A stretch of DNA of 39,819 nucleotides. It comes from Halalkalicoccus subterraneus (GTDB lineage Archaea > Halobacteriota > Halobacteria > Halobacteriales > Halalkalicoccaceae). Both the position numbers and the translations under genes were made by a program. The notes below the pieces were generated by a model, which had not been told where the DNA came from, did not search any database, and saw only the letters and a program-made list of their open reading frames with translations. The stretch covers positions 1-39,819 of the forward strand of contig NZ_RDQG01000068.1 in the NCBI RefSeq assembly GCF_003697815.1, in the 5' to 3' direction. Below are positions 6,988 through 30,440 of this stretch, one piece after another. Numbering within the stretch: the first letter of the stretch is position 1; every line of letters begins with the position of its first letter.

Positions 6988-9900
6988 ATGGCAACAACCG
7001 ACCGACACGACCCCGCGACCGACGACCGAGCGAACTACGACTACACGAACGGTGACGTCGAGCGACCCGATCTCGTGGCCGACCTCGAAGACCGCGTCGA
7101 GGGCGACGTCCGCTTCGACGAGTACTCACGGGAGCTGTACGCGACCGACGCCAGCGCCTACGAGGTCACGCCCATCGGCGTGGTCTTCCCGACCGCGACG
7201 GAGGACGTCGCCGCGGTGATGGCCTACTGCGCCGACCGAGAGATCCCCGTGCTGCCCCGCGGCGGCGGGACGAGCCTCGCGGGCCAAGCGGTCAACGAGG
7301 CGGTCGTGCTGGACCTCTCGCGGTACATGACCGACATCACCGACGTGGACCCCGACGCGATGCGGGCACGCGCCCAGACGGGGGTCACGCTCGGCGAACT
7401 TAACCGCACCCTCGAACCAGAGGGGATCAAGTTCGCGCCCGACCCCTCGACGGCCGACCGCAGCGCCTTGGGGGGTGCGATCGGCAACAACACGACCGGC
7501 GCACATTCGCTGCTGTACGGCAAGACCGACGCCTACGTCGAGGAGTGCGAGGCCGTCCTCTCCGATGGCTCGGTCCACACCTTCGGCGAGATCAGCGTCG
7601 AAGAACTCCGAGAGGAGGCCGATCCCGAGGGCGAGGTACTCGAGCGGATCTACGCGGAAGTCGTCCGGATCATCGACGAGGAGAGCGACGCAGTTGCGGA
7701 ACGGTACCCGAGCATGAAGCGAAACGTTTCCGGATATAACCTCGACGTGCTCGTCGAGGAGGCAAGCGAGGCGCAACGCGCCTCGGAGGACACGAGCGGT
7801 GTAACCGCGAGTACTGGGGAAGGAAGCACAGAGGAAGGTGTCGTGAACCTCGCGCGCCTGCTGGTCGGCAGCGAGGGGACGCTCGCCATCGTCACCGAGG
7901 CCGAAGTGAGTCTGGAGCCGATCCCCGAGACGAAGTCGATCGGACTACTTACCTACCACAGTCTGCTGGAGGCGATGGAGGACGTCGGCCCGATCCTCGA
8001 ACACGAACCCGCCGCCCTGGAGGTGCTCGACGGCGTGCTGGTCGACCTCGCGCGCGGGCTCGACGAGTTCAAGGACGTGATCGGAATTCTGCCTGATGAA
8101 ACCGATACCTTCCTCCTGGTCGAGTTCTACGCCGATTCGGACGAGGAGCGCCGGGAGAAGGTCGAGACGCTGCTGGAGGACCGGGTGGGCGAGATCGCCT
8201 TCGGCGGCTACGAGGCCTACGACGAGGAGACCCGGAAGGACTTCTGGAAGATGCGCAAGGCCTCGACGCCGATCCTCCTCTCTCGTACGGGCGACGAGAA
8301 ACACATCGCGTTCATCGAGGACGTCGCGATCCCGCCCGAACACCTCCCGGAGTACACCGCCGACTTCCAGGCGATCTTCGAGGACCACGACACGTTCGGG
8401 AGCTTCTACGCCCACGCCGGTCCGGGATGTATGCACGTCCGTCCGCTGATCGACACTAAAACTGCGGAGGGCGTCGAGACGATGGTTTCGATCTCGGACG
8501 CCGCGACGGATCTCGCGGTGAAATACGGAGGGAGCGTCTCGGGCGAACACGGTGACGGACGGGCCAGAACCCAGTGGAACAGGAAGCTCTACGGCGAGCA
8601 TCTCTGGAACGTGTTCCGCGACCTGAAGACCGCCTTCGACCCCGACTGGCTGCTCAATCCCGGCTCGGTCTGTGGCGACTTCGACATGAGCGAGAACCTC
8701 CGCTTCGGTCCCGACTACGAGTTCGAGGCGGGCTTCGAGCCCGAACTCAACTGGGAGAACGACAACGGCTTTCAGGGGATGGCCGAGCTGTGCCATGGGT
8801 GTGGCGGCTGTCGGACCAGCCAGGACGGAGCCGGCGGCGTGATGTGCCCGACGTATCGGGCCTCCCAGGAGGAGATCACGAGCACGAGAGGGCGGGCGAA
8901 CATGCTCCGGCAGGCGATGAGCGGCGATTTACCCGACGAGGAGCAGTTCGACGTGGAGTTCATGCACGAGGTGATGGACCTCTGTGTGGGCTGTAAGGGC
9001 TGTGCGCGGGACTGTCCCTCCGAGGTCGACATGGCGAAGATGAAGGTCGAGGTCGAACACGAGTACCTGAAGCGTCACGGGGTCGACCTGCGCTCGCGCG
9101 TCTTCGCGCGTATCGACTGGCTCTCGGACCTCGGGAGCGCGACCGCCCCGCTCTCGAACCTCGCGAGTTCGCTCCCCGGGTCGGGACTCGTCACCGAAAA
9201 AGTCCTGGGGATCGCCCGCGAGCGCACCCTGCCGGAGTTCGAGCCCGAGACGCTCACGGAATGGTACGAGAAACGCGGGCCGCAGGTGAGTGAAAAAGAG
9301 GCCGACCGGAAGGTTCTGTTGTTCCCCGATACGTTCACCGACCACAACAACACGAAGGCGGGCAAGGCCGCAATCGAAGTGCTCGAAGCCGCGAACGTTC
9401 ACGTGAGGGTTCCCGAAGGCGTCACCGGCAGCGGCCGGCCGGCCCACTCGAAGGGGATGCTCGACCTCGCGAAGGAGAAGGCCGACCGGAACGTCACCGC
9501 GCTCGCGCCCGACGTGAACGCGGGCTGGGACGTGGTCGTCGTCGAGCCCTCCGACGCCGTGATGTTCCAGTTGGACTACCGCGACCTCCTCTCCGGAGAC
9601 GCGGTCGAACGGGTGGCCGAAAACACCTTCGGCGTCATGGAGTACGTCGATCGGTTCCGCCTCGACGAGACGATGAGCTTCGGCGCGCTCGACGAATCGC
9701 TCACGTATCACGGTCACTGCCACCAGAAGGCGGTCAAGAAGGACCACCACACCGTGGGCGTCCTCCGGCGGGCCGGCTACCGGGTCGACCCGCTGGATTC
9801 AGGCTGTTGCGGAATGGCCGGCTCGTTCGGCTACGAGGCCGAACACTACTCGATGAGCCAGGCGGTCGGCTCCGTGCTGTTCGGACAGATCGAGGAGAGT

Positions 9901-10011
9901 GAGGGAGAGAGCGTCGTCGCCCCGGGTTCGTCGTGTCGCAGCCAGATCGGCGACGAGTACGGCGAAAAGCCGCCCCACCCGGTCAGAAAGCTTGCCGAGG
10001 CGCTGGCCTAA
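6988..10011 (+). CDS. FAD- and Fe-S-binding D-2-hydroxyacid dehydrogenase, YdiJ-type, first copy
   Basis: 1007-residue two-part flavoprotein. The N-terminal half has a type-4 FAD domain (PRGGGTSLAGQ, residues 90-100) and a GlcD-like C-terminal cap. The second half has two Fe-S cysteine clusters (LCHGCGGC near 600, LCVGCKGCARDCPS near 665) and a CCG domain (SGCCGMAGSFGYE near 939). This order and length match E. coli YdiJ, a D-2-hydroxyglutarate dehydrogenase; D-lactate or glycolate are alternatives. ATG 6988 was chosen for its GGAGGAG at 6969-6975. Relative to its paralogue it has an in-frame insert of about 16 residues (near 260-285) carrying hairpins. It overlaps the convergent CoA-transferase by 4 bp. 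Confidence 0.9.
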   Translation: MATTDRHDPATDDRANYDYTNGDVERPDLVADLEDRVEGDVRFDEYSRELYATDASAYEVTPIGVVFPTATEDVAAVMAYCADREIPVLPRGGGTSLAGQAVNEAVVLDLSRYMTDITDVDPDAMRARAQTGVTLGELNRTLEPEGIKFAPDPSTADRSALGGAIGNNTTGAHSLLYGKTDAYVEECEAVLSDGSVHTFGEISVEELREEADPEGEVLERIYAEVVRIIDEESDAVAERYPSMKRNVSGYNLDVLVEEASEAQRASEDTSGVTASTGEGSTEEGVVNLARLLVGSEGTLAIVTEAEVSLEPIPETKSIGLLTYHSLLEAMEDVGPILEHEPAALEVLDGVLVDLARGLDEFKDVIGILPDETDTFLLVEFYADSDEERREKVETLLEDRVGEIAFGGYEAYDEETRKDFWKMRKASTPILLSRTGDEKHIAFIEDVAIPPEHLPEYTADFQAIFEDHDTFGSFYAHAGPGCMHVRPLIDTKTAEGVETMVSISDAATDLAVKYGGSVSGEHGDGRARTQWNRKLYGEHLWNVFRDLKTAFDPDWLLNPGSVCGDFDMSENLRFGPDYEFEAGFEPELNWENDNGFQGMAELCHGCGGCRTSQDGAGGVMCPTYRASQEEITSTRGRANMLRQAMSGDLPDEEQFDVEFMHEVMDLCVGCKGCARDCPSEVDMAKMKVEVEHEYLKRHGVDLRSRVFARIDWLSDLGSATAPLSNLASSLPGSGLVTEKVLGIARERTLPEFEPETLTEWYEKRGPQVSEKEADRKVLLFPDTFTDHNNTKAGKAAIEVLEAANVHVRVPEGVTGSGRPAHSKGMLDLAKEKADRNVTALAPDVNAGWDVVVVEPSDAVMFQLDYRDLLSGDAVERVAENTFGVMEYVDRFRLDETMSFGALDESLTYHGHCHQKAVKKDHHTVGVLRRAGYRVDPLDSGCCGMAGSFGYEAEHYSMSQAVGSVLFGQIEESEGESVVAPGSSCRSQIGDEYGEKPPHPVRKLAEALA
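7767..7808 (+). repeat. two 3-nt-loop hairpins inside an in-frame coding insertion
   Basis: CGAGGCGC-aac-GCGCCTCG at 7767-7785 (8-bp stem) and GCGGT-gta-ACCGC at 7796-7808 (5-bp stem). Both lie in the Ser/Glu/Thr-rich segment absent from the paralogue at 18417-21527. The 3-nt loop design is the same as in the intergenic arrays of this window. Confidence 0.5.
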
Positions 10012-12057: not shown

Positions 12058-12340
12058 GAAAGCCCTCGGAATGCACTGGCGTGCCATTTCTCGCTCGCTC
12101 GTTTCATGTCGCTACGAGAGATCGCTCTGCGGTCTCTCGACGCTGAGCGGCGACGATGTCGCCACGAGGTCCGCGGAAACTCTGTTCCCGCGAGATTCCG
12201 GAAATCTCCGATTTTCCGAGGACCACCAAGCCAGCCGAGTCGCGCCGTGCGACCGCACGGCGCCTCTCGGGAACCTGCCCTTCCCCGTCCCACTCGCGGA
12301 GCCGTCGAGAGTGACGGCTCCGCGAGCACCGGCCACCGCA
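12058..12340 (+). repeat. 282-bp multi-hairpin dispersed element, copy 1
   Basis: Near-full-length reverse complement of 30160-30440. Exact matching blocks of 37, 22, 16, 15 and 31 nt lie in the first 170 bp; homology is weaker but still recognisable to the end (CCTGCCCTTCCCC, ACCGGCCAC). It folds into consecutive hairpins: AGAGATCGC-tct-GCGGTCTCT; GGCGAC-gat-GTCGCC; CGCGGAAAC-tct-GTTCCCGCG; CGGAAATC-tcc-GATTTTCCG; a 10-bp stem at 12242-12263; and GGAGCCGTC/GACGGCTCC near 12298-12321. It fills most of the 390-bp gap between the crotonase and dehydrogenase genes. No ORF is credible in it. Confidence 0.85.
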
Positions 12341-12409
12341 GTAATCCAAGGGAATCCTACGGCCAGACTCCGTAACGGCTTAATCCTCTCCCCTGGTGTG
12401 TGCGAGTAC

Positions 12410-18416: not shown

Positions 18417-21400
18417 ATGGCAACGAACACGGGGTCGGCGCGGGACGAGCGGGCGTCGTACGACTACGTCGACGAGGACGAGGCCGTTCCGGACGCGCTG
18501 TCGGCACTCCCCCGGTTGGTCGGCGGCGAGGTCCGCTTCGACGACTACTCGCGGGAACTGTACGCGACCGACGCCAGCGCCTACGAGATGACGCCTATCG
18601 GCGTGGTCTTTCCGACCTCGACTCGGGACGTCCAGGTGGTGATGCGCCACTGCGGGAAGAACGGGATCCCGGTCCTGCCCCGTGGCGGCGGGACGAGCCT
18701 CGCGGGCCAGTCGGTCAACGAGGCGGTCGTCCTCGATTTCACTCGCCACATGGACGGCATCGCCGAGATCGACATCGATGGCCGGCGGGCCCGCGCGGAG
18801 GCGGGCGTCTATCTGGGCGACCTCAACGACGAACTCGCACCCCACGGACTGAAGTTCGCGCCCGATCCCGCCTGGCGCGATAAGAGCGCACTCGGCGGCG
18901 CCATCGGCAACAACTCGACCGGCGCACACTCGTTGAAATACGGCAAGACCGACGCCTATATCGAGGAATGCGAGGTCGTACTCGCGGACGGCACCCGGAC
19001 GACCTTCGGGGAGATAACGCCCGAGGAGATCGACGAGCGAGCCGACTCCGAGGGCGATATCGAGGCCCGGATCCACGCTGCGGTCAAACGGATCATCGAG
19101 GAGGAAGGTGAGGCGATCGAGGAGGCCTACCCCGACCTGAAGCGAAACGTTTCGGGATACAACCTCGATATGCTGATCGAGGAAGCGCGCGCGGTCCGGG
19201 ACGGCGCGACGGAGACGATCAACCTCGCGCGCCTACTCGCCGGTAGCGAGGGCACCCTCGCCATTATCACCGAGGCCGAGGTCTCGCTCGAACCGATCCC
19301 CGAGACCAAGGCGATGGCGCTGCTGACCTACGACACCCTGATCGACGCGATGGAGGACGTCGCGCCGATCCTCGAACACGACCCCGCCGCCGTCGAGGTG
19401 ATGGACGACGTCCTCTTGGACCTCGCCCGCGAAACCGAGGAGTTCGCGGACGTCGTCTCGATGCTCCCGCCAGAGGCGTCTTCGGTCCTCATCGTCGAGT
19501 TCTACGCCGGGAACGATCCAGAGGGCTTGAAGAAGGTCGCGGGCCTGCTCGCGGATCGAGCGCCGGAGGCCGACCACGAGGGCGAATTGGGCGAGAATCG
19601 AGCGAAAACCGACGCCCCGATCAACGCGACGGCGGCGATGGAGGCCCACGACGCCGACGAGCGCGCGTTGTTCTGGAAGATGCGAAAGAGCGGGCTGCCG
19701 ATTTTGCTCTCCCGTACCAGCGACGAGAAACACATCTCCTTCATCGAGGACTGTGCAGTGCCCCCCGAGCACCTCCCCGAGTACGCCCGCGAGTTCCAGG
19801 AGATCCTCGAGGACAACGGTACCTTCGCGAGCATTTACGCCCACGCCGGCCCCGGCGTGCTTCACGTCCGCCCGCTGATCAACACCAAGAACGTCGAGGA
19901 GGTCGAGGCGATGGTCGACATCGCGGATCGAGTAACCGACGCCGTCGCGCGATTCGGCGGGAGCGTCTCGGGCGAACACGGCGACGGTAGAGCCAGAACC
20001 CAGTGGAACAGGAAGCTCTACGGCGACCATCTATGGAGCGTCTTCCGCGACCTGAAGACGGCGTTCGATCCCGACTGGCTGTTGAATCCCGGCTCGGTCT
20101 GTGGCGACTTCGACATGAGCGAGCATCTCCGGTTCGACCCGGACTACGAGTTCGAGATGGGCTTCGATCCGGTGCTGGAGTGGGACAACGAGAACGGCTT
20201 TCAGGGGATGGCCGAGCTTTGCCATGGGTGTGGCGGCTGTCGTGGACCCCAGGAGACCACCGGTGGGGTGATGTGTCCGACGTTCCGCGCGAGCGAGGAG
20301 GAGATCACGAGCACGCGGGGCCGAGCGAACATGCTCCGACAGGCCATGAGCGGCGATCTCCCCGATGGCGAGGCCTTCAGCGACGAGTTCGTCACCGAGG
20401 TGATGGACCTGTGTATCGGCTGTAAGGGCTGTGCGAAGGACTGCCCCTCCGAGGTCGACATGGCCAAACTCAAGGCCGAGGTGACCCACGAACACCACCA
20501 ACGCCACGGTGCGGGCCTGCGCTCCCGGATGTTCGCGAACATCGATACCCTCTCGAAACTGGGGAGCGCAACCGCACCCGTCTCGAACTGGCTGTCCGAA
20601 CTGCCGGGCGCACGCATCGCGATGGAAAAGGCGATCGGGATCGCCCGCGAGCGTGAGCTTCCGACCTTCCACCGCGAGACCCTCGTCGACTGGTTCGATG
20701 AGCGTGGCCCACGGGTCAGCGAATCGGACGCGGAGCGGAAGGTCCTGCTCGTTCCCGACACCTACACCAACCACAACCACCCCGCGGTCGGCAGGGACGC
20801 CGTCCGAGTCCTCGAAAGCGCGGGCGTCCACGTCCAACTCGCGGACGTCGGCGACAGCGGCCGACCCGCCTTCTCGAAGGGCTTTCTCGACGCCGCCCGC
20901 GAGCGTGCCGAGGAGAACGTCGCGGAACTGGCACCCCGGATCGAGGCGGGCTGGGACGTGGTGGTCTGTGAGCCCACGGATGCCGTGATGTTCCAGTCGG
21001 ACTACCTCGACCTGCTTTCGGGCGATAGCGCGGAGCAGAGTCGTGGGAAATCAGGGATTCCCGGATCTAGCGAGTCTTCCGATTCGCCAGACTCCGCGGA
21101 CCGTTCGAGCGGGCAACACCCGCGAGAAGGTGCTGTCGAGTCGGTGGCCATCAACACCTTCGGCGTCATGGAGTACGTCAACGCCTTCGACCTCGACCTC
21201 CCGGACGGCGAGGGATCGCTGACCTATCACGGCCACTGCCACCAGAAGGCGACGAAAAAGGACGTCCACGCCGCGGCGGTGCTCTCGCGGGCGGGCTACG
21301 ACGTCGACGTCCTCGATTCGGGCTGCTGTGGGATGGCCGGTTCGTTCGGCTACGAGGCCGACCACTACGCCATGAGCGAGGCGATCGGCTCGATCCTCGT

Positions 21401-30086: not shown

Positions 30087-30159
30087 GGGCGTCCCACGGG
30101 GCGAGGACGATTGAGGGTTGTGATCGTTTGCCTCCCCTACCTATGACGGTTCGGTGCGG

Positions 30160-30440
30160 TGCAGTGGCCGGTCCGAGCGTGGGCGGCACTCACGTCGCCC
30201 GCGTGAGGAGGGTGGGGAAGGGCTGGCGTTCCCGGAAGCGGCGCGTGATCACGCGCCGCGACTCGGCAGTGCCTGGTGGTCCTCGGAAAATCGGAGATTT
30301 CCGGGATCTCGCGGGAACAGGGTTTCCGCGGACCTCGCGGCGACATCGTCGCCGCTCAGCGCCGAGAGATCGCTCCGCGGTCTCTCATAGCGACATGAAA
30401 AGGGCGAGAAATGGCACGCCAGTGCATTCCGAGGGCTTTC
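30160..30440 (-). repeat. 282-bp multi-hairpin dispersed element, copy 2
   Basis: Inverted relative to copy 1 (12058-12340). It contains a perfect 22-nt palindrome at 30238-30259, CGGAAAATC-gga-GATTTCCG, CGCGGGAAC-agg-GTTTCCGCG, GGCGAC-atc-GTCGCC and AGAGATCGC-tcc-GCGGTCTCT. The GAAAGCCC end lies 36 bp before the rpoL start, much as copy 1 ends 38 bp before the crotonase start. The 390-bp gap between the rhomboid and rpoL genes holds little else. Confidence 0.85.

Follow-up and report, generated by a model that had tools for sequence, protein, structure and literature searches.

An in-frame insertion in a Halalkalicoccus dehydrogenase gene is very probably a copy of a dispersed haloarchaeal palindromic element

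A YdiJ-type dehydrogenase gene on contig C68 of G000, a Halalkalicoccus genome of 3.6 Mb, encodes a Ser-rich stretch that is missing from its paralogue on the same contig; where did this coding DNA come from? The whole stretch of DNA that was analyzed, called the window here, spans 39,819 nt, and its relevant features are listed in Table 1. The initial annotation had read the extra segment as a palindromic element that inserted into a coding sequence and persisted as a loop of the protein. This reading was supported by the analysis; the insert and its motifs proved to be real, although the coordinates had to be shifted and the direct match to the intergenic repeats of the window is marginal.

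Table 1. Positions of the element copies, their parts, and their host genes in the window
Feature	Coordinates	Strand	Basis
Paralogous YdiJ-type gene, host of the second element copy	6991-10011	+	68% identity to the host protein
Second element copy, in the paralogous gene	7759-7819	+	Covariance model, E 2.1e-10; empty sites
Intergenic multi-hairpin repeat, copy 1	12058-12350	+	Element-related module on the - strand, 12152-12200, E 0.011
Host gene, YdiJ-type FAD/Fe-S dehydrogenase, 1036 aa	18417-21527	+	NCBIfam YdiJ model, E 3.5e-161, a match that falls under the curated cutoff of the model
In-frame insertion DSAEQSRGKSGIPGSSESSDSPDSADRSSGQHPREG, 36 codons, 108 nt	21024-21131	+	Empty orthologues L011, L012, L013, L014, and L015
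Hairpin 1, outer stem GCGGAG (21030-21035) / CTCCGC (21092-21097)	21030-21097	+	Fold and model alignment
Extra hairpin A, GGGAAATC-AGG-GATTCCC	21045-21062	+	Sequence and fold
Extra hairpin B, GCGAGTC-TTCC-GATTCGC	21070-21087	+	Fold
Hairpin 2, GCGGG-CAACA-CCCGC (most conserved part)	21109-21123	+	Fold and covariance model
Intergenic multi-hairpin repeat, copy 2	30150-30440	-	Element-related module on the + strand, 30302-30374, E 0.012

Of 59 related genomes, 53 contain an orthologue of the host protein, and the alignment of these orthologues confirmed that the segment, estimated earlier at about 35 residues and now counted as 36 codons, is absent class-wide; it is missing not only from the paralogue but also from five of the six congeners (G002, G003, G004, G005, and G006). 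It starts directly after the residues DLLSG, and three close Halalkalicoccus relatives possess precisely empty sites at this position. With the empty site CTTTCGGGG-TCG-GCCGTCGAG of L012 as the reference for its borders, the insert replaces one codon, resulting in a net gain of 105 nt. The interval originally assigned to it, 21036-21146, was placed about 12 nt too far downstream, whereas the motifs named within it are all present, i.e., GGGAAATC (21045-21052), AGG, GATTCCC (21056-21062), GGATCT (21063-21068), and TCCGCGGACC (from 21093). Most other haloarchaea have 0 to 8 extra residues at the insertion point. The orthologue of the sixth congener, G001 (L010), features an unrelated 51-aa insert at this codon boundary, and G038, G041, and G058 carry unrelated inserts of about 25 aa each. 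The G001 insert was rejected as an old copy of the element, as the covariance model described below gave no match to it. Because some lineages carry such unrelated inserts, the site is regarded as a permissive loop, in which an insertion could therefore survive. A structural model had been suggested as a check, and AlphaFold places the insert in a stretch of low model confidence (residues 870 to 901, pLDDT below 50) flanked by helices 853-867 and 902-912; the insert is thus predicted to be a disordered segment between two helices.

The origin of the insert was addressed by alignment to three full-length intergenic repeat copies in G000, with dinucleotide shuffles and 6,256 real genomic windows as backgrounds. 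Gapped local alignment gave p values of 0.006 to 0.04 and 0.01 to 0.07, respectively, and ungapped alignment a p value of about 0.13 against both. Since these values are marginal, the pairwise comparison proposed with the initial annotation was rejected as proof of origin, whereas at the level of the element family the nucleotide likeness is highly significant. The intergenic copies are also unconvincing as the immediate donor, since dispersed copies in relatives match far better. Specifically, bases 60 to 97 of the insert match dispersed sites in other Halalkalicoccus genomes with E values of 2e-9 to 1e-5 (six congeners searched). These sites carry the same sequence of about 60 nt within unrelated open reading frames, in a single reading frame throughout (e.g., DSAERSSADRSSGQRPREEA), and the sequence of their second hairpin also occurs within intergenic repeats. 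A covariance model was seeded with an ungapped alignment of nine copies, leaving out the window copy; these nine form two hairpins, with pairing in 98% of the stem cells and two-sided changes in five pairs. The element consensus of about 55 nt reads AGCGCGGAAC-NNN-GTTCCGC-GGACC, followed by TTCGAGCGGGC-NNN-GCCCGCGAGAAGA, and encodes the peptide SAERSSADRSSGQSPRED. The model matches the window insert at 21021-21134 with 56.5 bits and an E value of 3.6e-16. An ordinary length-variable surface loop, in which an unrelated Ser/Asp-rich low-complexity expansion arose at an indel-prone site and resembles the repeat by chance, would agree with the unrelated inserts of up to 51 aa found at the same place in G001, G038, G041, and G058 and with the marginal direct alignment. 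We consider it highly improbable, as it is refuted by the family-level match of a model built from copies in other genes and genomes and by the occurrence of the same DNA in unrelated genes with empty sites. Searching the proteome of G000 for similar inserts, another suggested check, returned the insert itself as the sole match; the insert peptide is too short, so the family is invisible in a protein search of one genome. Rfam gave no match above the gathering score in the window.

The core of the window insert is the two-hairpin element of about 55 nt, which encodes about DSAERSSADRSSGQSPREDG and is enlarged by two extra hairpins, A and B, enclosed in the loop of hairpin 1. The first hairpin of this copy is non-standard, and an alternative reading by the covariance model takes 21063-21134 as a complete element (E 5.8e-9). 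Hairpin 2 with its flanks (21092-21129) is the portion that matches the dispersed congener copies. Hairpin A resembles GGAAAATC-GGA-GATTTCC of the intergenic repeat, and hairpin A, GGATCT, a variable stem, and TCCGCGGACC follow one another in the same order as in that repeat. The fold of the window copy is only mildly better than that of shuffled sequences as single-stranded DNA (z = -1.6), with a z value of -2.6 as RNA. The window copy is a longer version of the element, and its two added hairpins resemble modules of intergenic arrays. A single modular family of hairpins, we infer, gives rise to the intragenic copies as well as the intergenic arrays.

A second element copy, overlooked in the initial annotation, is located in the paralogous YdiJ-type gene. 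It accounts for a net gain of 48 nt in both G000 and G001 and is absent from G002, G003, G004, and G005. The copies at this site in G000 and G001 are identical at 60 of 61 bases, with flanking DNA differing by about 12%; G002, G004, and G005 are closer relatives than G001, yet lack the copy. The third and fourth best covariance-model matches in the window are the two intergenic repeat copies, and the strands of the matching modules agree with those named for the repeats earlier. This intergenic repeat, about 290 nt long, consists of several hairpins, the stem differences between copies being seemingly compensatory; full or partial relatives occur in all seven Halalkalicoccus genomes, and it matches no Rfam family.

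The flanks of 19 insertion-bearing genes were searched across the genus for empty sites, and 40 orthologous stretches were compared. In 15 further genes, a single Halalkalicoccus species, or occasionally two, carries the element, which is precisely absent from others, with a net gain of 42 to 105 nt that is a multiple of 3 every time. The interrupted genes encode A-type ATP synthase subunit B, ribonucleotide reductase, HemB, a TrpG-like amidotransferase, glycyl-tRNA synthetase, inositol monophosphatase, HutH, a superfamily-1 helicase, SucC, PheT, a FixC-like oxidoreductase, a quinone oxidoreductase, an isopropylmalate synthase-like protein, a Cdc48-like AAA ATPase, and what we guess to be a proline dehydrogenase-like protein (L176); the names were taken from Pfam or NCBIfam for some and from reading of the sequence for the rest. 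Three plasmid genes also carry the element in frame +0, i.e., those for CobN (Natronococcus occultus), MerA (Halorussus vallis), and a mismatch-repair protein (Halorussus aquaticus), according to NCBI annotation and gene coordinates. The open frames, the coding flanks, and the essential nature of host genes imply that the inserts are probably translated and the host proteins functional. In the quinone oxidoreductase gene, one site is filled in both G001 and G006 (L150 and L177) and empty in G002 and G004. The two copies have identical stems and differing loops, and the shared site reflects either cross-species recombination or repeated insertion at one target. L182 of G002 contains two element copies about 1.6 kb apart within one open frame of 1,362 codons.

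Reading frame was assessed by scoring the flanks of 105 copies by codon usage. Both flanks were coding in one frame for 67 copies, of which 65 were in frame +0, two in frame +1, and none in reverse; 15 were non-coding on both sides and 23 unclear. The model was seeded with frame +0 copies, so that some bias is possible; its score uses nothing but DNA and pairing, and non-coding copies are found as well. Among 65 distinct 63-nt copies, frame +0 contains no stop codon and frame +2 is closed by TAG in 37, while frame +1 and the three reverse frames almost never contain a stop (2, 2, 2, and 3 copies with one). As five of the six frames are open, open frames cannot account for the frame bias, which must come either from host proteins tolerating the hydrophilic peptide or from insertion being directional. 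In the same 65 copies, 96% of the stem cells are paired, and 107 cells show changes on both sides, compared to at most 49 in 500 shuffles. These compensatory changes alter both residues concerned, codon 4 (E, A, or V) varying with codon 9 (S, A, or T) in the combinations E4/S9, A4/A9, and V4/T9. At four sites common to two species, fourfold-degenerate positions differ in 3 of 42 cases inside the element, compared to 116 of 312 in the codons on either side (p = 4e-5). This low divergence may stem from selection acting on the hairpin, from gene conversion between copies, or from similar copies having inserted separately at a single target; with so few sites, it serves as a lead only. Because the stems covary and synonymous divergence is low inside shared copies, the conserved entity, as judged from sequence, is the hairpin rather than the peptide. 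The hairpin might accordingly have been exapted, i.e., selected as an mRNA or DNA structure (for stability, pausing, a transcription-coupled process, or as the target of a DNA-binding protein) beyond being tolerated selfish DNA. The persistence of stems while loops change, the low fourfold-site divergence, and the frequency of compensatory changes that alter amino acids speak for this possibility. Against it, the divergence data come from four sites, where gene conversion, independent insertions at the same target, or recent acquisition give an equal pattern, and the distribution does not point to a needed function, since most copies occur in a single species whose relatives lack them. We regard exaptation as possible but rather doubtful.

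Genome-wide counts are lower bounds, since only the best 36 to 150 candidates per genome were scored. On this basis, the Halalkalicoccus genomes contain at least 25 to 50 matches each at E ≤ 1. At E ≤ 1e-3, matches occur in at least 103 of 116 genomes and at least 43 of 47 genera of Halobacteriales, amounting to at least 1,218 in total and up to at least 41 per genome. In a phylum-wide sample, at least 22 of 28 Halobacteriales genomes possess a match, compared to at least 1 of about 119 others (Fisher p = 1e-19), the lone match outside the order being weak (E 2.5e-4). Carriers include Haloarcula vallismortis, Haloarcula sebkhae, Salinibaculum, Halorubrum rubrum, and Haladaptatus sp. DYF46 (at least 30 matches); in Halobaculum litoreum, the covariance model found no element among the best-scored candidates. 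Near-identical 63-nt copies occur in unrelated genes across dozens of genera (up to 84 to 88 bits), and intragenic copies often have extra modules upstream or downstream. Intergenic relatives in other genera form arrays of several such hairpins, about 270 nt long. G083 (L286-L290) and G013 (L291-L294) contain families of these arrays, whose core copies are identical between several chromosomal locations; the likeness of the G083 arrays, 82 to 92% over about 270 nt, suggests a fairly recent spread. Local hairpin-driven duplication or template switching, which would generate similar sequences de novo at many sites without a mobile element, could explain the tandem hairpin modules and the lack of a visible target duplication, but the near-identical copies just described speak against it, and it could not yield the linker GGACCGTTCGAGC common across genera; we consider it highly improbable. 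The element family is large and apparently undescribed.

Sequence comparison thus established that unrelated genes and genera share the sequence, that empty sites define precise in-frame insertions, that one frame predominates, that the stems covary, and that the element is spread across the order. The window insert is very probably one copy of a dispersed haloarchaeal palindromic element that is mobile or copied and is kept in genes as a tolerated, translated loop. The element would move, or be copied, into new sites by transposition or templated copying. Genic copies would be retained where the site is a surface loop and the element lies in sense orientation, in the frame reading as SAERSSADRSSGQSPRED, and the added peptide would be translated as a flexible, tolerated, and presumably neutral loop; selection removing harmful insertions would then produce the frame bias. 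Mobility we infer from distribution, because no transposition was seen and the empty-site alignments display no clear target-site duplication. No viral contig in IMG/VR contained the strict element pattern, which is too strict to exclude viral carriage. REPs lie outside genes and are linked to a Y1 (RAYT) transposase. REP/BIME elements form intergenic hairpin arrays, as do the relatives of about 290 nt found here, but the haloarchaeal element lacks the tie of REPs to Y1. Y1 transposase genes are present in 8 of 13 element-free and 9 of 17 element-rich genomes (p = 0.72), and PF01797 (Y1) is absent from the element-rich genomes G041, G087, G062, G014, G060, and G002. With no such association, a Y1/RAYT transposase was rejected as the mobilizer. 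The same data weigh against mobilization of the IS200/IS605 type, in which the element would be a terminal-only remnant, as the many copies in those six genomes coexist with zero Y1 genes. Its model would be the PATEs of Haloquadratum walsbyi, which are described, along with other small mobile repeats of this species, as short, palindrome-bearing, and devoid of transposase or target duplication, 52-bp terminal-only versions being known (PMC3119063); we judge this origin unlikely. In the parts of that source consulted, PATEs and small repeats are described as inserting mostly in other mobile elements, with no mention of in-frame insertion in host genes (PMC3119063).

The closest parallel, drawn already in the initial annotation, is provided by the Rickettsia palindromic elements (RPEs), which occur between genes and in frame within conserved, unrelated protein genes, where the added peptide is tolerated (PMC10969869, PMC2229807; Ogata et al. 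2000, 2002). Like RPEs, the haloarchaeal element is a palindromic multicopy repeat inserted in frame in unrelated conserved genes, in one frame and with a conserved hydrophilic peptide, and the analogy extends to the 15 further genes with empty sites. RPEs are described as one long stem-loop of about 105 to 150 bp, in ten families and one bacterial genus (PMC2229807), whereas the haloarchaeal element measures about 55 nt, forms two short hairpins, is GC-rich, and spans an archaeal order. By analogy, it would work like RPEs; it was not filed as one, since its length and layout differ from their published description. Coding palindromic insertions have also been reported for Wolbachia (PMC2229807; Ogata et al. 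2005), whose repeats, as far as described there, are protein-coding like the haloarchaeal element but bacterial. The same source mentions that coding palindromic repeats have become part of protein genes in an archaeon, Methanocaldococcus jannaschii (PMC2229807), a hyperthermophilic methanogen outside the clade of the present element, the comparison being one of descriptions. The claim that such insertions were new for haloarchaea consequently holds in part: no report of in-frame palindromic elements in haloarchaea was found in the open-access literature, a search that mostly excludes subscription papers and whose outcome is no proof of absence, but coding palindromes as such were already known from an archaeon.

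Reports of in-frame palindromic insertion have come from a few intracellular bacteria and a single methanogen. In haloarchaea, it would be a general and apparently continuing process in nearly all sampled genera of a free-living order with good genetics. A bolder and tentative proposal is that an order-wide, enzyme-mobilized hairpin creates loops in essential genes and is then itself selected, which would impose a dual constraint of coding and of DNA or RNA structure. The element supplies essential enzymes with new protein segments that can be counted, and with paired filled and empty alleles at hand, whether insertions are neutral, harmful, or useful becomes a testable question. Indels annotated in haloarchaeal alignments may be mobile-element insertions.
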